Assembly: GCF_000430585.1 (NCBI RefSeq)
Contig: NZ_AUMH01000008.1
Location: 62,001 to 126,000, forward strand
Source of the DNA: Alicyclobacillus herbarius DSM 13609
GTDB taxonomy: Bacteria; Bacillota; Bacilli; Alicyclobacillales; Alicyclobacillaceae
Direction of reading: 5' to 3'
Length of the DNA: 64,000 bases
In this document: in pieces, positions 6,245 through 64,000 of the stretch
Layout of the letters: each line of letters begins with the position of its first letter
Numbering within the stretch: position 1 is the first letter of the stretch
Notes under the pieces: model-generated
Databases searched by the model: none
Told to the model about the DNA's origin: nothing
What the model saw: only the letters and a program-made list of their open reading frames with translations
Program-made: the position numbers and the translations under genes

Positions 6245-6343
6245 GAATATAACATTTATATCTCCTCATCTTTTGAAACACTTGTGTGCCCCGGGGTGAT
6301 TTCGTGTGTCCAGTCTGTAAGACCAAGGAAGGGGAGGTCGGTC

Positions 6344-45288: not shown

Positions 45289-45445
45289 AGGTACCACCAA
45301 CTCTTGGCGAAGGCGCTTGCAGACATTCCAACGCCAATGATTTATCCAAGTAGCTCACTGGAATTTGGGCTCGTGACCTTGTGGGCACATCCGGAATGAA
45401 AAGAAGTAAAGATGAGCCTGTTTGCGGTGTCCTGAGGTGCCACAT

Positions 45446-46555: not shown

Positions 46556-46583
46556 GATTAACCACCTGCGCAAATGTGATGAC

Positions 46584-48575: not shown

Positions 48576-48962
48576 ATGAAACAGCAGTACATGAACCTTA
48601 GACTTTTTCAACGGAACGTTCCGTTGCTCGGCATGTAGGCACGACAAGAATTACAAGATTTCGAATCGACTGCTGTTCGGTGTACGGCCTGTGGGCACTA
48701 GATATCACGGACGGCAGGTAAGATAATTTATAAGACGCGGACCCCATTGACCGTCTCGTTTTGGGCATTATTACTTGTTGCCCATGATATACGTGGCATT
48801 TCTGCCCTGGCGCTCTTCCCGTGAATTGGACTTCAGATATAAAACCGGATGGCTCCTGTTACACAAGCTCTGCCGCGCTATGCGTACGCGCGAGGAAGAG
48901 TACGTCCTAGCCGGCATCGCGGGAATGGACGAAGCCTACTTTGGCGGTCCCGGTGAAGAACC
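48576..48962 (+). pseudogene. IS1595-like transposase, 5' part (interrupted)
   Basis: Reading from the ATG at 48576 gives MKQQYMNLRLFQRNV, then RCTACGH (zinc-ribbon remnant), TPLTVSFWALLLVAHDIRGI, and after a frameshift near 48812 RELDFRYKTGWLLLHK and GIAGMDEAYFGGPGEE, the IS1595/ISXO2 catalytic Asp region. In-frame stops and the frameshift show decay. The gene is cut at 48962 by the IS66 insertion and resumes at 54179 with KRGRGTNKTPVL. Confidence 0.85.
48955..48962. repeat. Target-site duplication of IS66, left copy
   Basis: GAAGAACC immediately precedes the left terminal repeat; the identical 8-mer follows the right terminal repeat at 54179-54186. An 8-bp duplication is the hallmark of IS66-family insertion. 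Confidence 0.9.
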
Positions 48963-48983
48963 GTAAGCGTAAGACTCCTCACA
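48963..48983 (+). repeat. Outer copy of the left IS66 terminal repeat
   Basis: The 21-nt terminal sequence (GTAAGCG...CTCACA) occurs here and again exactly at 49116-49136, as direct repeats 153 nt apart. The outer copy is the one adjoining the target duplication, so the element's end has been duplicated with foreign DNA between. Confidence 0.85.
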
Positions 48984-49115
48984 GCGCGCCTAGCAAAGCT
49001 AGGCACAACTAGCCGGTGGAAGTCCGGTCGAGGTAGGGGCCAGACCGCCTCGTAGCTAGCAGGCACCTGGTGGTGAGAGCCTAAGGGTGAAGCCCTGTGA
49101 AAAGCCCGAATGGGT
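48984..49115 (+). ncRNA. Group II intron-like 5' fragment between duplicated IS66 ends
   Basis: This 132-nt segment starts GCGCGCC, close to the group II intron 5' consensus GTGCGNC. It continues with short hairpins (CCTAGC/GCTAGG, GCCGG..CCGG) and GAGCCTAAGGGTGAAGCCC, resembling the start of intron domain I. No reverse transcriptase, domain V or 3' end follows. It differs from the intact intron at 51090. The identification is by pattern only. Confidence 0.45.
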
Positions 49116-49136
49116 GTAAGCGTAAGACTCCTCACA
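49116..49136 (+). repeat. Inner copy of the left IS66 terminal repeat
   Basis: An exact second copy of the 21-nt terminal sequence, followed by CCTTGTGC as expected for continuing IS66 DNA, matches the right end's ...CACACCT continuation better than the outer copy does. It is therefore probably the original element end. Confidence 0.8.
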
Positions 49137-49220
49137 CCTTGTGCTTGTCCGGACTTAGGCGAGAGTAGTCTACAGCAACAATCAACCCCGCCAGGGAACC
49201 CAGCGGGGCGATTTCTCATG

Positions 49221-50828
49221 CTATCCTTTTTTTCCACGTCTCCGGATTCGTTCCGGCAGACGCTCCGACCACGGCAGCAAGTCGTCCATCGCTGCCGGGT
49301 CATCTGTTCGGATGTTGGGCAGCCGCTCGAATAGGTACTCCAGGTACAAGTACGGGTCCAGGCCGTTCTCCTTGGCCGTCTCCACCAGGCTGTACGCGAT
49401 GGAGCTCGCCCTTGCCCCGCGCGGCGTATTCGCAAACAGGAAGTTCTTACGTCCTATCACAAATCGTTTGATGGATCGCTCGCTCCGGTTGTTGTCCAAC
49501 TCCAGATGGCCGTCCTGCAGGTACACCACCAGCTTCGGCCACTGGTTCAGGCAATACGAAATCGCCTTGCCCAAGGCACTCTTGGGCACCACCTGTCCGC
49601 TCTGCTCCTGAAGCCATGCCAAAAACTCGTCAAGCACCGGCCGACTCAGCCTCTGCCGTTCGGTACGACGTTCCTCCGGGGTTGTGTCTTTCAATGCACG
49701 TTCGATTTTGAACAGCCGGTTGCAGTACTCAAGCCCAATCCGGGCGGCTGTTGGTTTTTTCCGTTCCGCTGTTGGCAACACCTTGAGTGCCTCGTCAAAC
49801 TTGCGCCTCGCGTGTGCCCAGCACCCCACCAAGGTGACGCCCTTGATACCGTGGTATCCGCTGTACCCATCCACATGCAGGTACCCCTTAAATCCCTCCA
49901 GGAACCTCCTTGGGTGCTCCCTCGAACGGGTCTCCTGATAGTCGAATAGCACGATAGGGGGACCATCCCGGCCGCTGCGGTACAGCCACATGTACGACTC
50001 CGACTCGGCCGCCCGTCCCGGCTCGTGCAGCACCTGCAACGTCGTCTCGTCCGCGTGCAGGTACGTGCGGGAAAGCAGCTCCTCGTGCAGTCGCTCATAC
50101 ACCAAGCTAAGCCACCGTGTCGTGCCCAGCACAACCCAGTTGGCCAGGGTTTGCCGTGTCAGCTGCAAGCCGTGTCTAGAGAAGTGTTGCTCCTGCCGGT
50201 ATAGTGGCAATCCGTCCACGTATTTCTTGTCAATCACATGCGCCAGCATCGAGGCGGACGCTAGACTACCCGGAATCGGAGGCTTGGGCATCTGCGCTTT
50301 CACCATCGGTGTTTCGGTCCCATGCTTGTCGCACGGTCGACACGCGTATTTATACTGTACATGTTCGACCAACACCGTTTGAGCCGGGATGTGCTTGAGC
50401 TCACGACGAACCTCAGTGCCCACCTCGTCCATGACTACGTGACAGCAGGAACAGATCCGCTCTTCCTCCGACAAACGGTATTCAATCCGCTCGACAGGCA
50501 GATCTGCAAGCATGGCCTCTCGCTGGCCAGGCTGTTTCTTGCGTCGTTGATACGTAACCGTCTCGACAGTGGGTTCCTCTGCCTCTGGCTGCGCCTCCGC
50601 CTCGGCCTCGTTAAACACCAGATCCAATCGAACCTGGTTTTCCATCGTGCGTTCGCTGGATTTCCCGAACTGCCGATGGCGAGCCAGGCGAAGCTCTTCC
50701 AACAACAGCTTCACCTGCTTTTTCAGTTCCGCGTTTTCCCGCTCCAGCGCTTCGTAGCGCTCCTGCAGGGATTCCGGTTGGTGGGTGGTCACCTTCGTCG
50801 TGTTCATCATGCAAAAGGATTTCGACAC
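49221..50828 (-). CDS. tnpC: IS66 transposase TnpC
   Basis: The 535-residue DDE transposase is full length. It has a leucine-zipper-like N-terminus ([21 protein letters not shown]), a zinc-finger region ([20 protein letters not shown]), and catalytic parts including [39 protein letters not shown] and [19 protein letters not shown]. The start is taken as GTG 50828; ATG at 50810 is an alternative. It shows no inactivating mutation, so the element may still be able to supply transposase. Confidence 0.95.
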
Positions 50829-50842
50829 GGCCGTCGAAATCC
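50817..50842. repeat. 10-bp inverted repeat over the tnpC start
   Basis: GGATTTCGAC and GTCGAAATCC form a perfect stem with a 6-nt loop between tnpB and tnpC. The stem contains the GTG start codon of tnpC, so it could limit tnpC translation in the mRNA. Confidence 0.6.
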
Positions 50843-50874
50843 CTTGACAGATCCTTCTGAGTTTACCGGTTCCC

Positions 50875-51089
50875 TTACACCACTTTTTTCGCGGTTACTC
50901 TCCGGTGTGCCTTTGGCTGGTGGGGTGGCAGTCCGTCCAACAGCCAGTTCAGCTCTCGGCGGCTGATGACGACGGTTTTGCCATCGCTGGCGTCTGGCCA
51001 TTGAAACCGGCCTCGTTCCAGCCGCCGATAATATAGCCAGAAGCCGTTGTGCTCCCAGTACAGGATCTTCAATTTGTCCCGTTCCCGGT
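50875..51089 (-). CDS. tnpB: IS66 TnpB, 3' exon
   Basis: The frame enters at the intron 3' junction with [18 protein letters not shown] and continues [14 protein letters not shown] to a stop at 50875. This is the C-terminal ~70 residues of IS66 Orf2/TnpB. Joined to the 5' exon at 53628-53775 it gives a 120-residue protein, the normal TnpB length. TnpB is an accessory protein required for IS66 transposition. Confidence 0.88.
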
Positions 51090-51099
51090 GTCGGGTAAG

Positions 51100-51164
51100 T
51101 CGGTGGCCTTACGGCCACCTCCTCCCCTAAGAACCGTGCATGACAGTTTCCCGTCACACGGCTC
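51100..51164 (-). ncRNA. Group II intron domains V and VI
   Basis: On the minus strand, GAGCCGTGTGACGGGAAACT and its pairing partner TGTCATGCACGGTTC form the 34-nt domain V hairpin with a GAAA tetraloop (51131-51164). GGTGGCCgtaaGGCCACC (51102-51119) is the domain VI stem, just before the 3' splice site. Confidence 0.85.
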
Positions 51165-51180
51165 AAGCCATCCTGCAGTT

Positions 51181-53046
51181 TTATCGTCGTTCGACCTTTG
51201 ACCGTTGTTCACCATTCCACGCCACATGTCCATCGACCACACTTTCCTGGTTGGAAAGGTAGCGTTCTGGATGGATGGGAAGGGTATCATGGTCATAAAC
51301 GGAACGGTACTTCTCGTAGCACCATCGGTGCGTAACGACGACATTTGCAATCGTATTGCGGCCTCCGAGTCGTTCGGGAATCATCCGAACGAACAGGACA
51401 TTCTTGTCTCCATTGACCTGCCAGCGTCGGAAGTGTTCCGTAGAAATGGGACATCCACAGAGTGCACACCGTCCGTGGGTTTTGCGCACCACTGTCTTCT
51501 GGAAGCCGTTCAACCGTTTCAGGAGCAGTTGCTCGCGTCTTGCTTCGAAATACTCCTGGTCGCTTGGGCGATAAGGCGAACGTCGTCCCTGTATCTTCAC
51601 GTGCCGTATGATGCGAATGTCGCTCATGATGGCTAGCGTGAGTGGACCGTCCGCGAATACCCCCTTGCGATTTCCACGCCGAGGGAAGTACCTCCGGTGA
51701 ATCCACCGGGCTCCTTTCCCCGGATGTCGTCGTTTCGCCCATCTCCAGAGCATCCAGTGTATCCTATGGTCGCAGTAGTTAAAGATTTTCTTACTCACCT
51801 GGGTGCTGTAATAGTTGCCCCATCCCCGAATCAAGGGGTTCAGCAATCGAATGACCGTAGATGGCTTGGCCGACTTGTTCGCGTCCAGGATGCTCTTGAT
51901 TTTCCGCAGAAAGGCCAGCACATTGGCCTTGGCGGGTTTAATCAATAGCGTTCCGTGGTACTTTCGGACATGGAATCCCAGGAAGTCAAACCCGTCATTG
52001 ATGTGTGTGATACGGGTCTTCTCGAGACTGAGTTCAACTCCGACATTCTCCGCAAGCCACTGGGCGATGACCGGTATAAACTGCTCTGCCTGCTCTTTGG
52101 TTTTGCACGTGACGATGAAGTCATCCGCATAGTTAACGATGTGGATGCCGGGGTTCGTACGGTCTCTTCCAAATTTCATTTGGAATGCCCTTTTCCGCAA
52201 CTCGTTCTCCATACCCTGTAACGCGATGACCGCCAGTAAGGGGGATAACAGACCCCCTTGAGGTGTGCCCCTGGTGCTTGGAACAAGCCCATTTTCCGGG
52301 TCAAGAACTGGGGCTTTCAACATACGCCGAACAAACACACGGTCTTCTGGAGCCAGCTTAGCCAGCAGTTTCGCGTGGTCGACGTTGTCAAAATACCCTC
52401 GAATGTCCCCTTCGATGACCCATTGGGGTGAGTTGGAACGGTTAAGGATGAGGTAGACTTGTCCGATCGCGTCCCATGTCGATCGCTGTGGTCGGAATCC
52501 GTACGTGTTGGGCGCAAATTGAATGTCCCACTCCGGTTCCATGGCCATCTTGTGGATGGCCTGACACACGCGGTCGTGCATGGTGGGAATTCCTAAAGGT
52601 CGGAGCTTACCGTTCTTCTTACGGATGTACACCCGCCGAACCGGGTAAGGACGTGGACGCAGATTTACGAGTTCGCAGAGTTCGCGGCGTTTTTCTGGGG
52701 TCGTGTATGTCTTCCCGTCGACTCCTGGGGTGCGCCGCCCCCGGTTTTCTTGCGTCACGTGCCGAATGGCCAGAAGTTTGACGTGGTGGCTGGTCCGAAT
52801 GAGCCACTTGTAGTGGCGCACAGCTTTACGATTGCCATTTTCCACTGCGTGAGCCAGTTGTCGCTGCAACCTGAGGACGTGGCGTTCGATATCCTTCCAG
52901 TCTATCCACTGGTCCATATCGTGTGGACTGGTCTCGGCCGTTTGGGCTTCCAGCCATGCGCGCATGATTGAGTCTTCGTGGATTTCTCGGGGATTCTTAC
53001 GAATGTGGCCTGTTGACTCGTCTTTTGAGACGGCTTTTCGGTTCAT
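51181..53046 (-). CDS. ltrA: Group II intron reverse transcriptase/maturase/endonuclease
   Basis: The 621-residue intron-encoded protein is intact. RT blocks include RRVYIRKKNGKLRPLGIPT, GDIRGYFDNVDH, TPQGGLLSPLLAVIAL and the catalytic YADDFIVT. A maturase (X) domain follows (IRGWGNYYSTQVSKKIF). A C-terminal HNH endonuclease shows CALCGCPI and later VVTHRWCYEKY. The ATG at 53046 is preferred; the frame is open further up to 53190. All motifs needed for splicing and retrohoming appear present. Confidence 0.95.
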   Translation of the reverse strand: MNRKAVSKDESTGHIRKNPREIHEDSIMRAWLEAQTAETSPHDMDQWIDWKDIERHVLRLQRQLAHAVENGNRKAVRHYKWLIRTSHHVKLLAIRHVTQENRGRRTPGVDGKTYTTPEKRRELCELVNLRPRPYPVRRVYIRKKNGKLRPLGIPTMHDRVCQAIHKMAMEPEWDIQFAPNTYGFRPQRSTWDAIGQVYLILNRSNSPQWVIEGDIRGYFDNVDHAKLLAKLAPEDRVFVRRMLKAPVLDPENGLVPSTRGTPQGGLLSPLLAVIALQGMENELRKRAFQMKFGRDRTNPGIHIVNYADDFIVTCKTKEQAEQFIPVIAQWLAENVGVELSLEKTRITHINDGFDFLGFHVRKYHGTLLIKPAKANVLAFLRKIKSILDANKSAKPSTVIRLLNPLIRGWGNYYSTQVSKKIFNYCDHRIHWMLWRWAKRRHPGKGARWIHRRYFPRRGNRKGVFADGPLTLAIMSDIRIIRHVKIQGRRSPYRPSDQEYFEARREQLLLKRLNGFQKTVVRKTHGRCALCGCPISTEHFRRWQVNGDKNVLFVRMIPERLGGRNTIANVVVTHRWCYEKYRSVYDHDTLPIHPERYLSNQESVVDGHVAWNGEQRSKVERR

Positions 53047-53627
53047 AACAGACCACTCCTTTCGTCTCATGCTACAGGATTTCCGGTTGGATGACCTTGG
53101 GCAAGTCTGCATGCTTTCGCGTTGGGGTATCCCGGCCTTTCTGCCGCCCCTATCTGTCTCATTACAAGACAGCCTTCGCTTTTTGCCCATTCCTCTACCC
53201 CCTGAGGAGTTCGGCGTAACTTACGTTCCGCTTACTGTCGCGTTTCGGACAGACCCCATGGGGCTTACCTTGTTCCGTCGAGACCCCATCTCTGAAGTGT
53301 TTAGGTGCCCTGAATCCCGCGGTAGCGCTCGGAACTGCGAATCGGCAATCTGCAAGTGCCGATTCCGGCTACATGCCCTTTTGGCTCAAGCGTATCAGAG
53401 TGTTTCGCTTGTTTTCGTTCACGCGGTTTATTTAGGGTTCACGGATGTTCACCATGCACTTCGCAACCTAGCTCCGGCCCGAATTCACTCTATCTGGCAC
53501 GGCTACATTGTTCCGTGAGCTATCGCAAGACCGCGTTGCCACTGCCCCACGTCACGGTAGGTTCGCGTCCGCAGTTCTGGACGGGTGGATTCGCACCACA
53601 TGAATCTCGACGACTTTCAAGTCGCAC

Positions 53628-53775
53628 TACAGAACACGAAGACCGCTTGAGAAAACGGGTCCAGGTGAAAGGACTCCTGCACGAGAGCTGCCAAGCCGTC
53701 GATGGATTTGCGCATGTCTGTGCTGCCGCAAGCCAGGTACACGCGCAACTCCGGTCCCGTGCCGATGTTCAGCAT
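53628..53775 (-). CDS. tnpB: IS66 TnpB, 5' exon
   Basis: ATG at 53775 opens MLNIGTGPELRVYLACGSTD and continues MRKSIDGLAALVQESFHLD, the conserved IS66 TnpB start, to the 5' splice site after FVFC plus one base. The ATG overlaps the tnpA stop (ATGCTGA arrangement), indicating coupled translation. Continuation is at 51089. Confidence 0.88.
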
Positions 53776-54095
53776 AGCGACGCCAGGGTGTGCACCACAT
53801 CGCGCAGGAGTTCAGCGTCGTAACCCTGCGTAACCTCGATAATGGCCGGGCCTACACGGACGGAAAGCGGCTTGTCCGCCACGTCACCGGGGTCTTCAAT
53901 GCATGCAGTCACAAATCGTGGTGGATGGTCGTTGCAGTCCGTTTCCGACTTGAACTTGCTGATCCAATACCAAAGCTGGTGTTCCTTGACCTGATGAGCG
54001 GCACACCATGCGGCACCAGTTAACCCGCTGGCCCGGAAGTCCGCCACACGGGCACGCCAAAGCTCCCGATGTTTTTCCAACTCCGCCTTGGTCAC
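53769..54095 (-). CDS. tnpA: IS66 accessory protein TnpA
   Basis: The 108-residue product starts (GTG 54095, after GGGAGGG) VTKAELEKHRELWRARVADF and contains the helix-turn-helix-like SGLTGAAWCAAHQVKEHQL and WYWISKFK typical of IS66 Orf1. The frame stays open to 54140, but the family start matches 54095. It overlaps tnpB by 7 nt. Confidence 0.85.
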   Translation of the reverse strand: MTKAELEKHRELWRARVADFRASGLTGAAWCAAHQVKEHQLWYWISKFKSETDCNDHPPRFVTACIEDPGDVADKPLSVRVGPAIIEVTQGYDAELLRDVVHTLASLC

Positions 54096-54178
54096 CAAGA
54101 ACCCTCCCACATTCGATTCTGGGGGAATCATCTCGCACAAGGCAGGTTGGCGCTAGGTGTGGACTATTTGACGCTCAC

Positions 54179-54186
54179 GAAGAACC
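54179..54186. repeat. Target-site duplication of IS66, right copy
   Basis: GAAGAACC, identical to 48955-48962, directly follows the right IS66 terminus at 54178. Confidence 0.9.
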
Positions 54187-54640
54187 TAAGCGGGGGCGAG
54201 GAACGAACAAAACGCCCGTTCTCGGAGCGAGGCACTCATGTCACAAGGCAAACCCAAATACCTAAAGATGCGGGCCACGGAAAATGTGAAAAATCAAACC
54301 CTCACACAGTTCGTCAAGCAATCCTTCGCGTCAGATGTCACCATTCTGAACGATGGATACAGCGCGTACAAAAAGTTGGCTCAGGCGCTAAGCACGTTGA
54401 CCATGAAGTTTGATTTCGAAAAATAACCTGGACCACATGGAATGGGTACACCGGGCCATCTCGAACGCGAAAGCATTCTTCCAAGGCACGTATCATGGCA
54501 CCAAGGGCTAACATCTTCAGGCCTATTTAGATGAATATACGTAAACGATTGCAGCAATTCGAGAGAGAGTGGTCCAACAGGCTCCTAACTGCTGCCGTTT
54601 CTACGAAAGCCGTGACCGGATTAACACCCGTATATTGGAC
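54179..54640 (+). pseudogene. IS1595-like transposase, 3' part
   Basis: Continues the gene interrupted at 48962: EEPKRGRGTNKTPVL, then after a frameshift GKPKYLKMRATENVKNQTL and VTILNDGYSAYKKLAQ (second catalytic Asp region). Next come HMEWVHRAISNAKAFFQGTY with HGTKG, and RKRLQQFEREWSNRLL near 54540. Several frameshifts and a stop at 54509 break it. The order and reading direction match IS1595/ISXO2 transposases, confirming the insertion. Confidence 0.8.
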
Positions 54641-54826
54641 ACATACTCCCGATATTGAGCTCTTTCGTAGTTTTTCTTTCGACCTTTGCCCTTGACTATA
54701 AATTGCCATCGGTCGTCGGTCCGTCAAAGGTCGCTGTCGCTGAACCTTCGGTCCCCCTTGACTGCCCCTCCTCCCTCTGGCTTTGGGGAGTTAGGGGCAA
54801 AGGCCCTGGATACGCACCGGCGTGCG

Positions 54827-55711
54827 TCACACCCTCACAGGGCGTCTAGGCTCGAGCCCTGTCTCGACATGACGGCGGTAAAACTCCGACGGAGGCAGGT
54901 AGTGCAGGCTCGAATGCAGCCGACGGTTGTTATATCGGGTCACGAACTCCACAACCGCCTGGTACGCTTCTGCGTAGGTCTGAAACTCGTACATTGACAA
55001 GCACTCATCCTCCAGGAGCCTGTGATACGACTCGATGTAGGCGTTCATATTCGGCGTCTTAGGCGGTATACGCTCGTGGATGATATTCCGGCGTCCACAC
55101 TCCGCTTCAAACAAATGGCTCACGAACTGCGGGCCATTATCCGAACGGATGATGGGCAACAGGAGATTACGCTGAAGAATCTGACGCTTCCACAGGGCTG
55201 CTCGAAACGTTTCGGCGGCATGCCTGGCTTCGCAGGTAAGACCAATATGGTATCCCACAATCTGCCTGTCATACACGTCGATATACGACAGCACGAAGAA
55301 GAGACGGTCCTCTCCTGCGATGTATTCACACTTGACGTCCACCTCCCAGAGCTGGTTTGGCGCCGTGATGGTGCGGTTCTGTGCCAGCTTCCTCGGGTGT
55401 TTTTGACGGAGTTTCCGTTGCGGCCGCAGGATATTCAGTTCCTTACACAGGCGGTAGACCTTCTTCTCGTTGACCACCAGCCCATGGTCTTGCCTGAGCA
55501 TGTGGGTGAGCTTGCGGTACCCGTAAGCGTAACCATCGCCGGAAATGGCCTCCAGAATCCATTCCTTGATCTGCTCATCACTGACCTTGCGGTCCTCCGT
55601 AGTCAGTGAATACCCGGGAATCGGGCGGCCACCCGAGGTGGTATGTGGCCTTGGTTCGTGCGTCAACTGGTAATAATAAGTGGATCGAGAGACCCCCACG
55701 ATGCGCAGCAC
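54827..55711 (-). CDS. IS3-family transposase OrfB
   Basis: The 294-residue open frame carries an rve/DDE integrase core: LWEVDVKCEYIAG (first Asp), IIRSDNGPQFVSH (second Asp) and NAYIESYHRLLEDE (Glu), with a helix-turn-helix-like start IVGVSRSTYYYQL. The protein is likely made as an OrfAB fusion by -1 frameshifting from orfA; the in-frame extension upstream of 55711 (PSLADKVAVAHKW) reaches the slippery site. All catalytic residues are present. Confidence 0.93.
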   Translation of the reverse strand: MLRIVGVSRSTYYYQLTHEPRPHTTSGGRPIPGYSLTTEDRKVSDEQIKEWILEAISGDGYAYGYRKLTHMLRQDHGLVVNEKKVYRLCKELNILRPQRKLRQKHPRKLAQNRTITAPNQLWEVDVKCEYIAGEDRLFFVLSYIDVYDRQIVGYHIGLTCEARHAAETFRAALWKRQILQRNLLLPIIRSDNGPQFVSHLFEAECGRRNIIHERIPPKTPNMNAYIESYHRLLEDECLSMYEFQTYAEAYQAVVEFVTRYNNRRLHSSLHYLPPSEFYRRHVETGLEPRRPVRV

Positions 55712-55755
55712 GAGAGTAACGTTATACCCGGCTGTGATCCACTTGTGCGCAACGG

Positions 55756-56127
55756 CTACTTTATCTGCAAGTGAGGGCTCTGTTTTTTTAGCAGGTCACG
55801 CAAAATCGCAATTTCAAGGTCTTTTTCGCCCAAAAGCTGCTTCAGATGCGCATTTTGCTTGTCCAATTCACGGTTTTCCGCTACGAGTTGAGCGTGCTCC
55901 TGCTGGGTAACATGAGTGGCGTTCCCCTTCGGATGACTGCCTTGCAAGGCTTGGCCAGCCTTATACTGGCGGACCCATTTACTCACAACATTGGGGCGAA
56001 TATCGTACTTCCGAGCCACTACGGAATTGTTTCCGGCAGCAATGGCCTGTTCGACAACTTGGCGTTTGAACTCTGCAGTAAATTTCCGACGTTCCACTTG
56101 AACAACCTCCTGATCCCATAGTCTCAT
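55756..56127 (-). CDS. IS3-family OrfA (transposase DNA-binding subunit)
   Basis: The 123-residue protein has an HTH_28/IS150-type helix-turn-helix (FKRQVVEQAIAAGNNSVVAR, IRPNVVSKWVRQYK) and a C-terminal leucine zipper (NRELDKQNAHLKQLLGEKDL). The TAAAAAAAC run at 55783-55790 near its 3' end is a typical -1 slip site for producing OrfAB. Confidence 0.9.
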   Translation of the reverse strand: MRLWDQEVVQVERRKFTAEFKRQVVEQAIAAGNNSVVARKYDIRPNVVSKWVRQYKAGQALQGSHPKGNATHVTQQEHAQLVAENRELDKQNAHLKQLLGEKDLEIAILRDLLKKQSPHLQIK

Positions 56128-56164
56128 GGATGAGGGAGATTGTCCAATTCGATTACGGGGCTTA

Positions 56165-56610
56165 AAAGTGACCTATACCGTGCCCTTAGTTGGTCTTCTT
56201 TTGTTACTTCTCTGGCTCGCACGAGATCACGCAGGGCTTCATCTTCCTCTGTTGGAATGTAAATGGGCGTAAGCTCGCCAGCCCTTTATAATTGAGCTCG
56301 TCGAATTGCATCGCGCCGGTCCGTCTTCATTCGGTCTCTCGCACGTGTTGGGATTAAAGATGGAGCGACGACGCAACATTCGATTCCTAACGCGGTAAGG
56401 ATACAACCCATAACCTGTTGGACCAGCCTCGTAACAGAAATTGAGCTCGCATTCTTCCTCATCCAACTTTTTGATAAGCTTACGAATCGATTCTTCGTTG
56501 TTTGGAATCTGACCAAAATACCTGGGATTACCTCGTCCTTCATCAGCAATGGCCACTGCGATAAAATCCTTGGAAACGTCTAAACTAACATACTTTGTGC
56601 TATGCTTCAT
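56165..56610 (-). pseudogene. IS110-family transposase, N-terminal fragment
   Basis: From the ATG at 56610: [19 protein letters not shown] (DEDD first Asp) and [15 protein letters not shown]. After frameshifts come [35 protein letters not shown] and ELTPIYIPTEEDEALRDLV. It ends near 56163 at the IS3 element. Two frameshifts and truncation make it a remnant; the C-terminal domain with the serine motif is missing. Confidence 0.8.
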
Positions 56611-56675
56611 ATTATCGGCTCCCTCAAAATGTAGCTCTGATTGGCATTGGTGTTAACAAATATCAGTATGGCCAA

Positions 56676-56897
56676 TTAACCTACGGAATTCTGACGTGGA
56701 GCCGAACAATGTTCATGATAACTTACCGTGGGCTTATGGGGATGGCGGAGGACGGTGATGGCGTACTTTCTCGCATACCCGAGGGTGGTTACGACCTCGT
56801 CTATAATCTGGGATTTCTGGGGCCTGGATTTGGCCTTGTAGTAGCGCTCTCGGGCATCAGCAAGGTACTCTCGGCGGCTTTCCATGGACATACGCAC
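56676..56897 (-). pseudogene. Integrase/transposase N-terminal fragment (ISNCY-like)
   Basis: The 73-codon frame reads MESRREYLADARERYYKAKS and KSQIIDEVVTTLGYARKYAI, matching the N-terminus of ISNCY-type integrase-core transposases (EYL..R.RY..A.K..K..ILDE....GY.RKYAI). No catalytic core follows. It is a short remnant at the edge of the mobile-element cluster. Confidence 0.6.
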
Positions 56898-56976
56898 GAC
56901 GATCCCTTCGGCTAGATTTAGAGATGAGTGATCTCAATCCCTTTCGGTTAGGTTTTAATCGTGTGATCACAAATTG

Positions 56977-57004
56977 TTGATAATATTTGTTGTTGTTATA
57001 TTAT
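56977..57004 (+). promoter_or_regulatory. Promoter of the lanthipeptide locus
   Basis: TTGATA (56977-56982) and TATTAT (56999-57004) are separated by 16 nt in a very A+T-rich stretch, about 90 nt upstream of the precursor gene. A second overlapping TATTAT at 57002 gives a 19-nt alternative. Confidence 0.5.
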
Positions 57005-57090
57005 TATAGCGTATGTGGGGGATGTGCGAATGTAGGCGGAGAAGGAAGATGTTATGACTCTCTATTTGTAGTTTTGGGGAGGTGAGCGAC

Positions 57091-57204
57091 ATGACACGCG
57101 TACTGTCTCTGCAAGCGCTTCCGATCTACTCCGATGACGACTTCTTTTGGGGACTCGCCAACGCCTTTAGCAGTGCGTTTAGTGTGGGGTGTGTTTGTTG
57201 CTGA
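57091..57204 (+). CDS. Class III lanthipeptide precursor peptide (candidate)
   Basis: A 37-codon gene with an excellent ribosome site (GGGGAGGTGAGCGAC, then ATG). The leader begins MTRVLSLQALPIYSDDDFFW and contains VLSLQAL, matching the (I/V)LxLQxL recognition motif of class III precursors. The C-terminal core GLANAFSSAFSVGCVCC has Ser28-x2-Ser31-x2-Cys34, the labionin/lanthionine substrate pattern, plus Ser27, Cys36 and Cys37. One Trp (20) is present. It lies 172 nt upstream of a LanKC gene on the same strand. The call rests on motif and context; the cleavage site and rings are not known. Confidence 0.85.
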   Translation: MTRVLSLQALPIYSDDDFFWGLANAFSSAFSVGCVCC

Positions 57205-57376
57205 AACGATAGTTTAGCACTTTTATCCTTCTATCTGTCGGCACAACCCCCACTTTCTAACATATCCGGTGCCCTAACACTGCATGGCCTACTCTGTAAA
57301 ATAAATAGTCACATCAGTAGCTGAATGATGGCGATTGTTCATCAATGAATGTTATCGAAAAGGGGCAGTGGTTTAG

Positions 57377-60112
57377 ATGTCTATTGCGGATATCCGCCGT
57401 AACGAGCGTCAATTAGAGAAATTCCGCAACGCAAGAGTTCACATGATAGCTAGTACCGACTTCTATGATTCCCCCGATTCGTATATCCCTCGAGATGACT
57501 TTCTCAATCTTGTAAAGGAAAAGCTTCCTGTTGATTGGGAAATCGCTCGAAATTCCATTTGGTACAACCTGTTTCCGCCTGGGATAAAGCTGCCACAACA
57601 GGGTTGGAAGATTCACGTGTCAAGCACACTCGTTGATGCCCTTACGATTCTTCAAGGAGTGTTATCCGTCGTAATAAAGCACCGAGCGGCGATGAAATTC
57701 GCGGTCGACTCAGTAATGCTACGTACGATTAATTCGCGCGAATGGGTTCGAGGGGGGGCTGGAAAATTTATAACAATATACCCGCAAAGTACAGAGCAAT
57801 GCGCGCAACTGCTTGAACTTCTCTATGCGGAGCTGAAAGATGTCTCTGGGCCGTACATTTTATCTGATAAACGATATAAAGACTCAAAGGTGCTTTATTA
57901 TCGTTATGGTGGTATAAATCCCGTTACCCGTCTCCGGTACGATGGCCGGAAGGAGACTATATTGGTATCACCAGATGGGACAGAGTGGGTTGATAGACGT
58001 GAGCCGTTTTTTTTGTTACCTCCATGGGTAAGAGATCCGTTTGGAAATGAGCCTGAGAGCAATCAGGAGGATAATGGAATACTAACCTTGAAGGACGATC
58101 GCTATTTGATATTGCAAGCTATCCATTTCTCTAACGCGGGTGGCGTATATCTCGCATTGGATAACCAAATTGGTACTGAGGTTATAATTAAGGAGGCTCG
58201 CCCTTATACAGACTGTGATGCCAAAGGTAACGATGCACGCTCGATTCGAGAAAATGAATGGCGGGTACTTACTAAACTACAAGGTACTGGGGTAGTACCG
58301 CGCGTCATAGACTTCTTTCAGGAATGGGAACATGTGTTTCTTGTACGAGAGTTCGTAGCAGGTCAACCCCTTTCATTAGTTCCATTTGCTCCGAGTGGCT
58401 TGAAAGGTTCTGGTGAGTTTCAATCTATGTTACAGAAGCTACAACGTAACATGGACCTCGCGGTCAGGATACAAGAGGCTGTTGAAACCATTCATAATGA
58501 AGGTGTCGTTCTTGGAGACCTGTCCGCGGATAACATAGTGATAGATGAGGACGGAAATCCAAAACTCATAGATTTGGATGCAGCTACTTTACTAGGGGAA
58601 CCTAGTGGTATTAGCTTCTTTACCATCGGGTTCTCTGGAAAGGAACGAAGGACCAGATTCGCCCCTACATTCGAGGATGATTATTATTCATTGGGTTGCC
58701 TACTATTCTGGATGATCCTGCCTATAAATGGCATGTTTGAATTGTCGTCTATCCCGTTTCATTTTCTGGAAGAACTAGAATTCGATTATGGTTTACCTTC
58801 GAGTATTCGACTCGCGATTGGTCGGTTGCTCAATAATACCAAGCAACGAGAAAGTGACGAAGAACAAAAAAGAATACCACGAATCGAGCTCGCGACCTAT
58901 AGTGTAAATGGAATGTCCAAGCTTCCTAGGTTTCGAGGTATTTCCGACACCGACATAGATGTACTCTTGCAACAGCTGATCCTAGGCGTAAAACGTACCG
59001 CAACACTCGCTCGGACAGATCGACTGTTTCCAAGTGATCCCGCGCTCAGTAACCCACTTGGTGTGGCTCATGGAGCCTTGGGGGTAGTCTACGCCTTGAA
59101 TCTTATTAGTGGAGAAGTTCCAGACGCTTATAAAGACTGGATCAGATCCCAAGAGCTTAGTACTAAAACGTATACTCCAAGTCTTTATCATGGGTTATCT
59201 GGAATAGGGTGGGCGATGTATGAAATCGGTCTCTATGATGAAGCAATGGAAGTTATAAAGTTGGCGGGAAACCATCCATTGTTATTGGAGTGCGCGGACA
59301 TAGAACACGGTGTATCTGGATTCGGGTTAGCGAATTTGTATTTTTGGATGAAGACCGGGCAATCGGAATTTCTAAAGACTGCCCTTGATGTAGGGACGTT
59401 TCTCACTAGTGTTGCCAAGTGGGATGAGAATGGACCATATTGGCTTTCCCCTGACGGACGCAGGTTCCTAGGATATGCAAGAGGCAATGCGGGGATCGCT
59501 TTGTTTCTCTTGTATTTGTATCTCGGTACGAGAGAGAAACGGTTCTTGGATATCGGTGTTAATGCGTTAAAGGCCGACATAGCGTTTGGTGTGCCTCAAC
59601 AGGGGGGATACATCTCCTTTCCGGAAGAACCAGGCGGTCAAATTGTTTCTCCCTACTGGCGTTACGGATCTGCTGGTATCTGTACTACTCTGATTAGGTA
59701 TGCTGTTGTTACCAAAGATCCAGAGCTAGTGCTTATGCTTAGTGATATCCTTCCAGACGTCAAACGGAAGTATACTGTATTTCCCAGTTTGTTTTCTGGA
59801 TTGGCAGGGCTAGGCAATCTGTTGCTTGATTATCATATGCTGATGGGCGATAGTGATGCTTTAGATGTTGCAAAAGCGATTGCGCGTGGAATAAGTTTGT
59901 TTAAGGTTCAGCGAGATGATCATGTTCTTTTTCCTGGGGAACTCCTTTATCGCTTTAGCGCAGACTTTTCAACGGGTGCCGCGGGAATTGGCTTATTCCT
60001 CTGGCGATTGAGAAATATGACATCGAATTTCAACTTTTTACTTGATGAACTTCTGACCGGGTTCAAGAATGGTGCGAGTGAACATCGAAAACGGTTGACT
60101 CTCGAAAACTAA
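57377..60112 (+). CDS. Class III lanthionine synthetase LanKC
   Basis: The 911-residue three-domain enzyme phosphorylates, eliminates and cyclises the precursor. Residues ~1-225 are the lyase-like N-terminus (LPQQGWKIHVSS near 72). Residues ~240-500 are a Ser/Thr kinase-like domain (VIIKEARPY with Lys272; GDLSADN with Asp381/Asn386; LIDLDAA near 398). Residues ~560-890 are a LanC-like cyclase (YHGLSGIGWAMYEIG, YGSAGICTTLIRY, FSGLAGLGN). The cyclase zinc ligands are absent: YGSAG instead of WCxG, and FSGLAG instead of CHG. This separates class III LanKC from class IV LanL. ATG at 57377 after AAAGGGGCAG. Confidence 0.93.
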   Translation: MSIADIRRNERQLEKFRNARVHMIASTDFYDSPDSYIPRDDFLNLVKEKLPVDWEIARNSIWYNLFPPGIKLPQQGWKIHVSSTLVDALTILQGVLSVVIKHRAAMKFAVDSVMLRTINSREWVRGGAGKFITIYPQSTEQCAQLLELLYAELKDVSGPYILSDKRYKDSKVLYYRYGGINPVTRLRYDGRKETILVSPDGTEWVDRREPFFLLPPWVRDPFGNEPESNQEDNGILTLKDDRYLILQAIHFSNAGGVYLALDNQIGTEVIIKEARPYTDCDAKGNDARSIRENEWRVLTKLQGTGVVPRVIDFFQEWEHVFLVREFVAGQPLSLVPFAPSGLKGSGEFQSMLQKLQRNMDLAVRIQEAVETIHNEGVVLGDLSADNIVIDEDGNPKLIDLDAATLLGEPSGISFFTIGFSGKERRTRFAPTFEDDYYSLGCLLFWMILPINGMFELSSIPFHFLEELEFDYGLPSSIRLAIGRLLNNTKQRESDEEQKRIPRIELATYSVNGMSKLPRFRGISDTDIDVLLQQLILGVKRTATLARTDRLFPSDPALSNPLGVAHGALGVVYALNLISGEVPDAYKDWIRSQELSTKTYTPSLYHGLSGIGWAMYEIGLYDEAMEVIKLAGNHPLLLECADIEHGVSGFGLANLYFWMKTGQSEFLKTALDVGTFLTSVAKWDENGPYWLSPDGRRFLGYARGNAGIALFLLYLYLGTREKRFLDIGVNALKADIAFGVPQQGGYISFPEEPGGQIVSPYWRYGSAGICTTLIRYAVVTKDPELVLMLSDILPDVKRKYTVFPSLFSGLAGLGNLLLDYHMLMGDSDALDVAKAIARGISLFKVQRDDHVLFPGELLYRFSADFSTGAAGIGLFLWRLRNMTSNFNFLLDELLTGFKNGASEHRKRLTLEN

Positions 60113-60142
60113 GATGAAAAACAAACTACAAAAAGTTGGGGT

Positions 60143-61237
60143 ATGAGTATGAGGCTTTTATATCTAAGTCGGGGGCGTGGCTTCGGCCACGCTGTCGTCG
60201 ATATTCAAATAGCATTATGGTTAAGAGAGCGGTTCCCGAGGCTTGACATTGTATTTGCATCTTATGGCGACGGGGCATCGCTTATTAGTAATTCGGTTTT
60301 CGAGTTCTCTCGCTTACAAATAACAGAAGACAGCGAGATGCAAGCGCAAATTGTAATTCCAGAAATCCACCGCGTCATAGACTTGCTTTCCCCACAAATT
60401 ATACTCTCGGATGAGGTGTTTTTAGCCCCACCGGCAGCAAAATTTCGTTCCATTCCATGCATACTACTGACGCACTGGTTCTTCTCGGAACTAGGGCTTG
60501 ATACCCCTCTCTATCGCTCACTTGACAGTCTCATGTGCATGGCAGAAAAAGTCTTGCTTTTAGATATGGAACCGTTTCACAAGGTGCCCGCTCCCCTACG
60601 GTCAAAGGTGAAGTTTATCGGTCCGATCATTCGTGATAGCTTTGTCCCTTATATCGATGCAAAACCAGATTGGGAACCAGAATTTGATGTTGTTATAACT
60701 ATGGGAGGTAAAACCAGAGCGTTTATACGGGAGATCCAAAAGATTCTCGATGCACTCTTTGTTCTATCCGAACAGGGAAAGGAATTAAATACAATGCTTG
60801 TAGTTCCCGGTATGCGCGAGTATTTCGAAGCATATGTTAGAGCAAAGGGAATGAACAGTGTTGTCGTTCGAGACTTTGTAAGTGACATTGCAGCATTAGT
60901 GCATTCAGCCCGTCTAACCGTAGGACGGGGATCATATACAACCCTTGCGGAGCTAGCCACTTTGGGAAAACCTTCTTTGCATCTTCTTGCAGATGGCAAC
61001 CCTGTGGATGAATTTCACGTCCTAAATTTCGCGACTCTAGGAACTATACAGTGGGAACGAGCTTCGAGAATCAATGTGGCATCCACAGCTCAACTCATAT
61101 GGTCGTCTTTCATGTGGGCTCAGCAAAATCAGACGAATGTTATGGAAGCGGGTTCAATATATAGACGATGTAATTCGCGTTTGGAAATAGAAACCGTCTT
61201 TGATGATATCCTATCGGACATTGGATTTTCGGACTAA
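60143..61237 (+). CDS. GT-B glycosyltransferase of the lanthipeptide locus
   Basis: The 364-residue product resembles GT1/GT28 (MurG-like) transferases. The N-terminal LYLSRGRGFGHAVVDIQIAL is the acceptor-side glycine loop; the C-terminal half has FDVVITMGGKTRAF, AALVHSARLTVGRGSYTTLAELATLGKP-type donor-site sequence (GRGSYTTLAELATLGKP) and a late LLADGNPVDEFHV. No membrane segment is visible. Between LanKC and the exporter, it most likely glycosylates the lanthipeptide. The alternative start ATG 60149 is equally plausible. Sugar donor and acceptor residue are unknown. Confidence 0.82.
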   Translation: MSMRLLYLSRGRGFGHAVVDIQIALWLRERFPRLDIVFASYGDGASLISNSVFEFSRLQITEDSEMQAQIVIPEIHRVIDLLSPQIILSDEVFLAPPAAKFRSIPCILLTHWFFSELGLDTPLYRSLDSLMCMAEKVLLLDMEPFHKVPAPLRSKVKFIGPIIRDSFVPYIDAKPDWEPEFDVVITMGGKTRAFIREIQKILDALFVLSEQGKELNTMLVVPGMREYFEAYVRAKGMNSVVVRDFVSDIAALVHSARLTVGRGSYTTLAELATLGKPSLHLLADGNPVDEFHVLNFATLGTIQWERASRINVASTAQLIWSSFMWAQQNQTNVMEAGSIYRRCNSRLEIETVFDDILSDIGFSD

Positions 61238-61306
61238 CTTGAGCTCTACGCACCAGCGTTTCAAGTCCGTGCTGTTCGTGTCTAATCCCGAGGAGTGACG
61301 TAAAGC

Positions 61307-62584
61307 GTGGGTGAAGAGAGCACGTTTTCTTTAAAGTCTTCCTACTATCAACTGGCTAAGACGCCAAGTTTCTTGGTTTTTTTGATTGGCAGGGTTATCT
61401 CTTTGTTAGGGGACATGTTGTTCTCTATGGCCACCATGTGGTATGTACTCGAGAAAACAAATTCGCCAATGAGTACCGCCGTCGTTGTGGTCATCCCAAT
61501 GTTGACAGCCTTGGTGGTATTTCAACCGTTCGCCACGATTGCTGACCGGTTGCATAAGAAAGTTGTGCTAGTTGGGAGTGACGTCTTTCGGGCCGCTGTA
61601 GTGTTGCTTGTAGCTTTATTGATGACCGTACACCGGGTCGATACGGTCGGTATCTATGTGGCCACATTTTTTCTCACACTGGCTGGATATCTTTTTGGTC
61701 CAGCACAGAATGCCGCCCTTCCGAGAGTGCTCCCAAACTCTGAAAAACTATTGCCGATTGCAAATAGCTTACTATCCGCAACGTCTGGGATTATCAGCCT
61801 CCTGGGCTACGCCATTGGGGGCATAATCGTGGCCATTCTATATCCAGTAGGTGCAGTTGTTGCAGATGGATGTTCATTTTTAATATCTGCTTTATCTATT
61901 TTAGTACTGCCTATTCCGGCCCTTCGTGCAAAGGGCCGCAAGGGAGTGTGGGGATTCGTAAAAGACAGTTTTGCAGGGCTACAATTCATTTGGAACCGAC
62001 CGGCCATTCGGATGTTTGGCCTCTTCGTACTCCTAATCAATTTTGTCAGCGGTCCAGCGGGGGTTCTTACAGTCGTATTCAGTCGGTCGGTTCTCCACGC
62101 AGGATTGCAGGGGTATGGATATCTAGAGGCGGCATATGCAGTGGGAGGCGTGGTTGGCTCAGTCGTGTCGGCCTGGGCATCGAGGAGATTGCGGTTATGG
62201 CAACTGTCGTTCATTGCGCTTGTTGGTTCCGGCCTATCACTCGCCAGTATGCCAATCGCCGCGAGTTTAATAGAATCCATCATTGCATTAACACTTGCTT
62301 CGATAGTTATAACCATGTTAAATATCCCGTTGTTTACTGCATTACAGTTACTTTCACCTGAAGAGCTTCGTGGTCGTGTTATGGCCAGTTTTGGTCTTTT
62401 TGCCGGGATCGGGCAACCGTTGGGGCTGCTTATCGGATCCTGGTTAATGGGCGCGATAGCACCTTCTCCTGTCTTCCTCGCGTCAGGAATACTGTTGGCC
62501 ATGTGCGGGATTCTCAGCTTTTTCTCTCGCACGTTACGCGGCCGTCAGAATCAGCTTGAGTCCCAGTCAGAGGTTCAGATATGA
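61307..62584 (+). CDS. MFS exporter of the lanthipeptide locus
   Basis: The 425-residue protein has 12 hydrophobic segments and the MFS export pattern (GRVISLLGDMLFSMATMWYV at the start, ATIADRLHKKVVLVGSDVFR in loop 2-3, RLRLWQLSFIALVGSGLS). It resembles macrolide/peptide efflux MFS proteins (MefA-like). GTG at 61307 follows AGGAGTGACGTAAAGC. It is the last gene of the locus and a candidate for product export or self-protection. No dedicated leader peptidase gene is present. Confidence 0.87.
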   Translation: MGEESTFSLKSSYYQLAKTPSFLVFLIGRVISLLGDMLFSMATMWYVLEKTNSPMSTAVVVVIPMLTALVVFQPFATIADRLHKKVVLVGSDVFRAAVVLLVALLMTVHRVDTVGIYVATFFLTLAGYLFGPAQNAALPRVLPNSEKLLPIANSLLSATSGIISLLGYAIGGIIVAILYPVGAVVADGCSFLISALSILVLPIPALRAKGRKGVWGFVKDSFAGLQFIWNRPAIRMFGLFVLLINFVSGPAGVLTVVFSRSVLHAGLQGYGYLEAAYAVGGVVGSVVSAWASRRLRLWQLSFIALVGSGLSLASMPIAASLIESIIALTLASIVITMLNIPLFTALQLLSPEELRGRVMASFGLFAGIGQPLGLLIGSWLMGAIAPSPVFLASGILLAMCGILSFFSRTLRGRQNQLESQSEVQI

Positions 62585-62915
62585 CGCGAGAGCTGATTTG
62601 TGATTTCGTCGGTTCACGCGTTCCATCTGCATGATGGAGATGGTATCGTTTGAAGATCGATATGTCTTGCGTCGGTTTCGTATAGAGGAACAAGCGACTA
62701 TTCGCCCATCACCAGGCGGTGCTAAGATCACCCCAGAAAGCGAATACATGGGTTGCCTTGGGGAGGCTCGTGATGCTCGGTTCTGGAATCAGCACCGTGG
62801 GTACGCCTCTCCGCAAATTCAAGTTGCCACCCGGAACCAAGGTGTCCCAAAAGTAGAGAGCTTCCTGTACGGCCTCCTTTCTGGACACTGAGAAAAATCA
62901 GGAGGGGTATGAGCG
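62585..62915. other. Gap at the island border, no gene supported
   Basis: An 86-codon frame (62631-62891) lacks a ribosome site and family resemblance. A shorter frame reading MLGSGISTVGTPLRKFKLPP near 62770 ends at a stop after 27 codons and may be a gene remnant. Base composition shifts here from A+T-rich to the G+C-rich aromatic operon, so the island boundary probably lies in this gap. Confidence 0.4.
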
Positions 62916-63734
62916 ATGAGTCTCGAGTTGGCCATGATTTCTCCCCACACCCCACGCATCTGCCATGAAGACCGCATTCCGGAATTCCAACGCCCGATGG
63001 TGGAGGCCATGCGCAAGACGGCCGACATCATTGAACAGGTGCAGGCGGACGTGATGGTGTTGGTGTCCTGTCACTGGATGTCGAGTTTTGAGCATTACGT
63101 CGATGCGACCGCCCGTCATAAAGGTATTCTGACGGCCGTAGAGTGCCCGGACCTCATCAGCGATGTGCCGTACGACCACGAGGGGCATCCAGAGTTGGCC
63201 CGTGCCCTGGTCACCGCCGGCAAGGAGGCCGGCTTGTCCGTCGTCGGCATTGACGATCCGTCCTATATCTGGGACTACGGTACGGTGGTACCGCTGCGTT
63301 ACCTTTTGCCTCGGCGCAAAATTCCGGTTGTTGACCTGTCCGTATGCTGGGCGGCTTCGCTGGAGGAGACGCAGGAGTGGGGCCGCGTCATCGGTCAGGT
63401 GCTGCGCGAGTCGCCGCTGCGCGCCGTGTTCGTAGCCAGCGGGGCCCTGGCCCACAACCTGCGTCGAGGGGCACAGAACTGGCCGAATCGGACCGAGCAG
63501 GCCCTGGACAAGGAGTTTTGTCAGCGCCTGGTGGAAGGGGACCTGAAGGCGGCCACCGAGATGCTGCCCTCATACGCCCGGGCGGCCACGCTGGAATCGG
63601 GTGGGCGCCACGTCGCCATGCTGCTCGGAGTTCTGGAAACCAACTATAACGACCTGTTTAAAGGGCAATTGCACGGGTACGGGCCTTCATCCGGATCGGG
63701 GAATCCGGTGTTGACGCTGCACCCTGTGGCATGA
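62916..63734 (+). CDS. Class III extradiol ring-cleavage dioxygenase (HpaD/LigB-like)
   Basis: The 272-residue product is of the LigB superfamily. Metal-site and catalytic histidines are visible in MISPHTPRICHEDR, VLVSCHWMSSFEHYVD and SGALAHNLRRG, with an acidic ligand near the C-terminus (LLGVLETNYNDL). The family cleaves catechols such as 3,4-dihydroxyphenylacetate or gallate meta to the hydroxyls. The aldehyde dehydrogenase gene 46 nt downstream fits a homoprotocatechuate-type pathway. ATG at 62916 after AGGAGGGGTATGAGCG. Confidence 0.85.
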   Translation: MSLELAMISPHTPRICHEDRIPEFQRPMVEAMRKTADIIEQVQADVMVLVSCHWMSSFEHYVDATARHKGILTAVECPDLISDVPYDHEGHPELARALVTAGKEAGLSVVGIDDPSYIWDYGTVVPLRYLLPRRKIPVVDLSVCWAASLEETQEWGRVIGQVLRESPLRAVFVASGALAHNLRRGAQNWPNRTEQALDKEFCQRLVEGDLKAATEMLPSYARAATLESGGRHVAMLLGVLETNYNDLFKGQLHGYGPSSGSGNPVLTLHPVA

Positions 63735-63780
63735 ATCGACCGCAAGATCGGAGCCAAGGAGTCGGAGAGGAGAACGTACT

Positions 63781-64000
63781 ATGGAAAAGATTTTGCACTT
63801 CATTGATGGAAAGTTTGTCGAGTCCAAGTCTGGACGTTTCTTTGACAACGTGAACCCGGCCACGGGTGAGGTCATCGGCCAGGTGGCCGAAGGCGGCCGC
63901 GAGGAGATTGACCAGGCGGTGGCGGCGGCTAGACGCGCGTTTCGCGCCTGGGGGAAGACACCGGCGGCCGAGCGGGCCAAAATCTTAAACCGCATCGCCG
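63781..64000 (+). CDS. Aldehyde dehydrogenase (hydroxymuconic semialdehyde type), partial
   Basis: The first 73 codons of an ALDH are present before the window ends: ILHFIDGKFVESKSGRFFDN, NPATGEVIGQVAEGGREEI and DQAVAAARRAFRAWGKT. The pattern matches 2-hydroxymuconic or 5-carboxymethyl-2-hydroxymuconic semialdehyde dehydrogenases, which act directly after extradiol cleavage. ATG at 63781 with GGAGAGGAG. The catalytic Cys and Glu lie beyond the window. Confidence 0.85.
   Translation, partial: MEKILHFIDGKFVESKSGRFFDNVNPATGEVIGQVAEGGREEIDQAVAAARRAFRAWGKTPAAERAKILNRIA

Follow-up and report, generated by a model that had tools for sequence, protein, structure and literature searches.

In a 64,000-nucleotide stretch of the Alicyclobacillus herbarius DSM 13609 genome (contig NZ_AUMH01000008.1, positions 62,001 to 126,000; hereafter the window), four genes between 57091 and 62584 encode a short precursor peptide, the lanthionine synthetase LanKC, a glycosyltransferase and a transporter. 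We consider it probable that they form a horizontally acquired class III lanthipeptide cluster with a glycosylated product. The class III assignment, which a first-pass annotation made from the sequence alone had also proposed, is strongly supported by the match of the synthetase to the LanKC model, by the conserved leader of the precursor and by similar small frames beside LanKC homologues in other genomes. Probable glycosylation of the product, a further part of that proposal, has gained indirect support, because all seven strong relatives found for the glycosyltransferase lie in clusters for ribosomally synthesized and post-translationally modified peptides (RiPPs); this context is a stronger argument for a glycosylated peptide than position by itself. 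What appears to be new here is a glycosyltransferase of a rare family, with strong relatives found throughout in other RiPP classes and never beside the 82 other LanKC genes. The features of the cluster are as follows.

57078–57084, + strand: GGAGGTG, ribosome-binding site for the precursor (sequence reading)
57091–57204, + strand: class III lanthipeptide precursor, 37 residues, MTRVLSLQALPIYSDDDFFWGLANAFSSAFSVGCVCC (leader and core motif, ribosome-binding site, LanKC neighbour)
57377–60112, + strand: LanKC, class III lanthionine synthetase, 911 residues, cyclase without zinc ligands (NF038151, PF25816, PF00069, PF05147, alignments)
60143–61237, + strand: GT28/MurG-like glycosyltransferase of a rare, apparently RiPP-associated family (PF04101, family alignment, profile match to MurG)
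61307–62584, + strand: major facilitator superfamily (MFS) transporter, probable exporter of the product (PF07690, 8.4e-28; TIGR00900, 7.1e-57, below cut-off)

LanKC and its precursor

The synthetase scores 717.8 bits against the class III model NF038151 of NCBIfam, 143 bits over the cut-off of 575, and 548.2 bits against the class IV LanL model, under the cut-off of 650; its nearest solved structures are class III LanKCs (8sap, 3.5e-78). It comprises lyase, kinase and cyclase-like domains, with the N-terminal motifs QGWKIH and GKFITIYP retained and the kinase residues K272, E273, D381, N386 and D399 invariant in the alignment. As the first-pass annotation had stated, the cyclase lacks zinc ligands: alignments place YARGNAG and LFSGLAG at the sites where zinc-dependent LanC enzymes carry Cys and Cys-His ligands. 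An enzyme of this type might also dehydrate its substrate without closing a ring, for example by yielding D-Ala together with another enzyme, and LanKC does occur with LanJC in daptide clusters, where conversion of L-Ser to D-Ala is predicted (PMC10036551; this and the other PMC sources are cited from excerpts). We regard this as exceedingly improbable here, given that the core cysteines stand in canonical SxxSxxC spacing, that the cyclase-like domain is matched over residues 593–883, and that no LanJC-like gene was recognised in the acquired segment by family matches and by eye, with no model-based search aimed at LanJC.

The 37-residue precursor with an LQ leader and an SxxSxxC core was likewise confirmed. 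The list of open reading frames (ORFs) gives its frame as 57082–57204, 40 residues from a GTG; the ATG at 57091 yields 37 residues and is preceded, at a distance of six bases, by GGAGGTG, a strong ribosome-binding site. The peptide joins an MTRVLSLQ leader to an SAFSVGC core; C34, C36 and C37 of the peptide each fit the spacing Sx2Sx2-5C counted from S28 and S31. No other ORF in the six frames of the window combines a [VILMF][LIVM]xLQ leader with a following (S/T)xx(S/T)x2-5C core, and because order-2 Markov windows average only 0.3 such ORFs (n = 60), the occurrence of one 172 bp upstream of a same-strand LanKC gene is not chance. The best NCBIfam match of the precursor, lanthi_III_b, reaches 15.8 bits against a cut-off of 30, and the peptide falls under every NCBIfam precursor cut-off; model-based annotation would therefore probably miss it.

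Conservation of the small frame was assessed at 83 LanKC loci, many of which end at contig ends. Searching species genomes with a 4-row LanKC alignment gave 289 relatives, the best 80 of which supply most of the set; locus L034 and two loci on Deinococcus plasmids complete it. In 67 of the 83, one or more short ORFs on the LanKC strand combine an LQ-type leader with a late Cys, and an LQ-leader ORF with SxxSx2-5C lies within 1 kb of LanKC in 56. Altogether 119 distinct LQ-leader ORFs were gathered, some of them spurious, and 95 contain SxxSx2-5C. The leader and core type thus recur beside LanKC genes across many phyla, where the earlier annotation had held that a lack of such conservation would count against a lanthipeptide cluster.

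Relatives of the glycosyltransferase in other RiPP classes

The product of 60143–61237 carries what we take to be a GT28-type donor domain, an assignment supported by a match to Pfam PF04101 at 22.0 bits, exactly the gathering score, and by a match of an 8-row family profile to the MurG structures 1f0k, 3s2u and 7d1i (9.1e-6 to 2.8e-5; 1f0k, 9.1e-6). The match to MurG is confined to the C-terminal part of the profile (positions 226–324), so that it bears on the donor domain, and the GT-B fold originally proposed, with its two domains, is putative. The same profile also finds, weakly, a processive glucosyltransferase structure over C-terminal or middle stretches, and a single-sequence AlphaFold model of the enzyme has a mean predicted local distance difference test score of 38.5.

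Relatives were sought on plasmids and in 398 Bacilli, 148 Paenibacillus-family, 49 LanKC-carrying, 394 Rhizocola-class, 299 Bacillota and 111 Chloroflexota genomes, samples that overlap. The query was the single protein for the 398 Bacilli genomes, a 5-row profile for the sets of 148, 49 and 394, and the 8-row profile for the last two; at most five or six candidates per genome were scored in the Rhizocola-class and 299-Bacillota scans. Seven strong relatives emerged, in genomes G149, G169, G237, G434 and G461, in Rhizocola hellebori (G556) and on a Streptomyces microflavus plasmid, with phmmer E-values of 5.9e-19 to 1.7e-14 among the ORFs of 93 loci. Forty-two weak, mostly C-terminal matches (33 in the 398 Bacilli, 2 in the Paenibacillus family and 7 in LanKC-carrying genomes) were set aside as generic MurG-like. 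The 299 Bacillota genomes yielded no new family member and the 111 Chloroflexota genomes no member, an empty result that shows nothing by itself; a scan of viral contigs returned no relative of the glycosyltransferase. Aligned with its strong relatives, the window enzyme shares 33 invariant columns, including SRGxGxGHA and, in the putative donor site, T267, E270 and L271.

Every one of the seven sits in a RiPP cluster of another class, five in radical S-adenosylmethionine (radical-SAM) clusters of Paenibacillaceae and two in YcaO clusters of actinomycetes of the thiazole/oxazole-modified microcin (TOMM) type. In all five Paenibacillaceae loci a conserved precursor of 37–39 residues, its core CGCGCAFSVGGGYG (in one locus CGCAC), precedes the radical-SAM maturase; after this come two ABC (ATP-binding cassette) exporters (tested in L159), the GT28-like gene and either one GT2 gene or two, and a further glycosyltransferase-like gene lies upstream. 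The model nearest to the maturase is that of the sactipeptide maturase StsB, which it matches well below the cut-off (tested in L159 and L182). In the two actinomycete loci a Cys-rich precursor is accompanied by a SagD-type YcaO protein over the cut-off and a TOMM leader-binding protein (from the plasmid annotation, and by eye in Rhizocola), then by a SagB-like protein whose score, tested on the plasmid, is below the cut-off; an ABC transporter and an unknown gene come next, and the glycosyltransferase is last.

These neighbourhoods are of interest in themselves. Loci L158–L160, L169, L170 and L180–L184 of Paenibacillaceae combine a CGCGCAFSVGGGYG-type precursor with several glycosyltransferase-like genes and possibly encode a glycosylated radical-SAM peptide; the phrase 'glycosylated sactipeptide' retrieved no paper from the open-licence literature. 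The YcaO/TOMM clusters of Rhizocola hellebori (L179, 9305–17679) and of the Streptomyces microflavus plasmid (L185, 1982–10671), which end in the same glycosyltransferase family, suggest glycosylated azoline peptides.

We read the window enzyme as a member of a peptide-tailoring glycosyltransferase family. Several observations weigh against this reading and against a glycosylated product. The enzyme is only 22–26% identical to its relatives, the two actinomycete proteins align poorly in their C-terminal half (tblastn coverage 46%), and seven relatives are few, five of them sharing both bacterial family and cluster type. Pfam support is borderline, and a weak match to PseG would also fit a nucleotide-sugar hydrolase. 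Three different types of core residue could serve as acceptor. Finally, none of the 82 other LanKC loci has the enzyme, and the pairing of LanKC with this glycosyltransferase has therefore been seen once.

A possible link between the window and the Paenibacillaceae clusters is the stretch AFSVG, common to the window core and all five Paenibacillaceae cores. A five-residue identity with one Paenibacillaceae precursor is reached by 0.86% of shuffles of the core and 0.21% of shuffles of the whole precursor (n = 100,000), and by none of the 119 LQ-leader ORFs. The match was noticed after the fact, and it is weakened by the presence of S-x-hydrophobic-S-hydrophobic-x-C in 18 of those 119 ORFs and by the TOMM cores, which are without AFSVG; S31 within the motif may, moreover, be consumed in a ring. 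We take AFSVG as suggestive only.

Rarity of the enzyme beside LanKC

The first-pass annotation had called glycosylated class III lanthipeptides rare, and within our samples this held. The scan of the 82 other loci extends at least 2.5 kb on both sides of LanKC in 69 of them, and 26 further LanKC-model matches from the Bacilli scan, checked within about 1.5 kb, also contained no such enzyme. Some other glycosyltransferase-like gene lies within 50 bp of LanKC at four of the 82 loci, a count to be read as a minimum because it comes from three profiles and not from a full survey; the GT2 and GT4-like profiles include some of the loci that they match (L100, L110 and L112), and the label 'GT4' was given by eye. 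Three of the four are the actinomycete loci L100, L110 and L112 (Streptomyces, Microbispora), with a GT2 gene directly after LanKC, and the fourth is from Poribacteria (L063), with another glycosyltransferase-like gene at 46 bp; one additional LanKC locus has a GT2 gene 5.3 kb away. Upstream of LanKC, L112 also carries a daptide-type metalloprotease over the cut-off, which fits the daptide clusters with LanKC and LanJC described in the excerpted PMC10036551.

The absence of the enzyme from all those loci, and from Hazenella, which has the closest layout, would be expected if the window held an ordinary class III cluster with an unglycosylated product and the glycosyltransferase acted elsewhere, on a cell-envelope glycan or in self-protection, or had been captured by chance; the weak resemblance that it bears to MurG-type envelope enzymes and the rearrangement of the segment by mobile elements point the same way. 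We nevertheless judge this unlikely. The gene fits closely between its neighbours, 30 nt after LanKC and 69 nt before the transporter gene on the same strand, its GC content resembles that of LanKC (0.447 versus 0.451), and its seven strong relatives are found where peptides are modified.

Proposed pathway and known systems

For the glycosylated product that we favour, LanKC would recognise the VLSLQ leader of the precursor, phosphorylate and eliminate core serines (S27, S28, S31), and use C34, C36 or C37 to form a lanthionine or labionin ring, as expected from its family. The GT28-like enzyme, judging from its co-location and its RiPP-associated relatives, would then glycosylate the modified core with a nucleotide sugar as donor; the acceptor may be Trp20, Trp being the type of residue used in NAI-112, a Cys of CVCC left outside the ring, or a Ser that is still free (S31 in AFSVG). 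Release of the product would fall to the MFS protein, a predicted exporter as first annotated, and a protease encoded elsewhere would remove the leader, as shown for other class III peptides of Firmicutes (PMC8960859, in part). Less firmly, the GT2 and FkbM proteins of the segment described below may extend or methylate the sugar.

The cluster is probably a variant of the glycosylated class III lanthipeptide, of which NAI-112 of Actinoplanes (AplA, AplKC, AplG) is the known example and the one named as glycosylated in the excerpts consulted (PMC12328550, PMC10373908). Both systems unite a class III precursor, a LanKC and a glycosyltransferase in one cluster, and Trp, the residue glycosylated in NAI-112 (PMC12328550, same excerpts), also occurs in the window core (W20). 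They differ in lineage, in core and in the MFS transporter of the window cluster, and the glycosyltransferase family of the window is not tied to class III. Hazenella coriacea (L022/L052/L116) has an MSRVLDLQKL leader, the order precursor-LanKC-MFS and a LanKC that is 38–39% identical, but no glycosyltransferase and a different core, SISSCDVQSC. The paenithopeptins and bacinapeptins are class III products of Firmicutes, often without a clustered protease, but no glycosylation is reported for them in the excerpted source (PMC8960859). The Paenibacillaceae radical-SAM/SPASM clusters (L158–L160, L169, L170) share with the window a related GT28-like enzyme, exporters and the AFSVG core, whereas they have a radical-SAM maturase in place of LanKC, an unrelated leader, and additional GT2 and other glycosyltransferase-like genes. 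The actinomycete YcaO/TOMM clusters (L179 of Rhizocola hellebori; L051/L185 of the Streptomyces microflavus plasmid) likewise have a related glycosyltransferase, at the cluster end, and an ABC exporter, but azoline-type chemistry is expected of them, their Cys-rich core is without AFSVG and the C-terminal half of the glycosyltransferase has diverged. Glycosyltransferase genes are mentioned in class IV clusters (PMC7268733, in part), and the presence of one near a lanthipeptide synthetase is therefore not new in itself. The open-licence literature, outside which most subscription papers fall, yielded no description of this glycosyltransferase family or of a glycosylated class III lanthipeptide from Firmicutes.

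If the enzyme is indeed shared by unrelated RiPP classes, it would be a practical tool for adding sugars to engineered peptides, and a family profile would bring to light glycosylated RiPPs overlooked by current models, as the window illustrates with a precursor under the NCBIfam cut-offs and an enzyme at the Pfam cut-off.

The acquired segment

The cluster lies in a segment rich in insertion sequences (IS), with the following features.

45222–62893, no strand: acquired 17.7-kb segment, IS-rich, low GC (blastn synteny, interval lengths, GC)
45446–46624, − strand: FkbM-family methyltransferase, in overlap with the GT2 gene; might methylate a sugar or the peptide, weakly linked (PF05050, 9.1e-18; TIGR01444, 88.5 bits, cut-off 37.7)
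46584–47984, − strand: GT2 glycosyltransferase; might be a second tailoring enzyme, weakly linked (PF00535, 1.6e-21)
49221–56897, − strand: mobile-element block between the GT2 and precursor genes (Pfam; transposase-like fragments by eye)
49221–50828, − strand: IS66 transposase (Pfam)
51181–53190, − strand: group II intron reverse transcriptase/maturase, within the region of the IS66 element (Pfam)
54827–56127, − strand: IS3-type pair (Pfam)

That the whole segment, cluster included, was acquired horizontally is well supported. Both same-genus genomes match the window by blastn at 62894–64000 and at or before 45221, and the interval between these points measures 2,309 and 2,302 bases in them versus 17,672 in the window; in one (G002) the short interval holds, by eye, ABC-transporter genes and a GntR-type regulator. 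The GC content is 0.451 for LanKC, 0.447 for the glycosyltransferase and 0.41–0.42 for the GT2 and FkbM genes, versus 0.574 at 1–45221 and 0.612 at 62894–64000. Among 61 genomes (the window's own and 60 relatives), 32 contain a match to LanKC, of which only the window's own is a LanKC and the others cover the kinase part; in the 398 Bacilli genomes 11 exceed the LanKC cut-off, the window's own included.

The about 9 kb of mobile-element genes that separate GT2 and FkbM from the precursor could mean that the cluster was brought in by mobile elements, had these two genes split off by the insertions and is no longer expressed. No recognisable protease or regulator gene lies within the segment, and promoter-like sites are not above chance. 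The four cluster genes are co-directional, as first described, but the single promoter proposed for them could not be upheld: TTGATA-N16-TATTAT at 56977–57004 is one of nine promoter-like sites, where shuffles gave 10.9 ± 2.9. Terminator-like sites number 8 versus 6.0 ± 2.5 in shuffles, and the 172 nt that part the precursor gene from LanKC form no better RNA structure than shuffles do (z 0.45). A decayed or silent cluster is nonetheless quite improbable, given that all four core genes are intact and full-length with catalytic residues retained and that the precursor keeps its strong ribosome-binding site.

GT2 and FkbM may be further tailoring genes, tied to the cluster weakly, by joint absence from relatives, low GC and position. 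The window GT2 is 27% identical over 416 residues (140 bits) to a GT2 protein of a Paenibacillaceae RiPP cluster. Plasmid records hold GT2 relatives of similar score (110–131 bits in 12 of 17 records, among the matches listed), and four of their contexts are secondary-metabolite or glycan loci with no recognisable RiPP enzyme in the annotation. In the 61 genomes the only other GT2 relative is that of G052, where 12 kb read by eye show no RiPP gene. The FkbM protein has two distant relatives in those genomes (2.3e-23, 3.9e-11), neither from the same genus. A firm second tailoring step by GT2 and FkbM was set aside, since GT2 relatives of similar score occur in non-RiPP loci.

Taking these elements together, we propose tentatively, and regard as somewhat doubtful in its entirety, that the glycosyltransferase represents a family of peptide glycosyltransferases independent of RiPP class, which would have moved between lanthipeptide, radical-SAM and YcaO pathways and would recognise a short motif of the core, AFSVG in the case of the window and the Paenibacillaceae, and not a leader. 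A second glycosyltransferase in some clusters would then build a di- or oligosaccharide, and with GT2 and FkbM the product of the window would be a class III lanthipeptide bearing a methylated sugar chain.

LanKC loci in other genomes

In a 57-row tree the window LanKC forms a long branch joined (support 85) to a Latescibacterota sequence of 40% identity, apart from a supported clade that unites the actinomycete LanKCs with four of the six selected from Bacilli genomes. An MFS gene follows LanKC at 4 of the 82 other loci. A core stretch near-identical to that of the window, LSSLLSIGCVC versus FSSAFSVGCVC, comes from a sulfur-cave metagenome-assembled genome (L091), the LanKC of which (5464–8146) occupies two overlapping frames (511 and 386 residues), through sequencing error or a true split, and was excluded from the tree. 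In a Poribacteria metagenome-assembled genome (L063, 2104–4262), one LanKC is preceded by nine precursors with a common [MT/MS]RILALQ leader, a C-terminal NN and very different cores, a class III set of combinatorial appearance.

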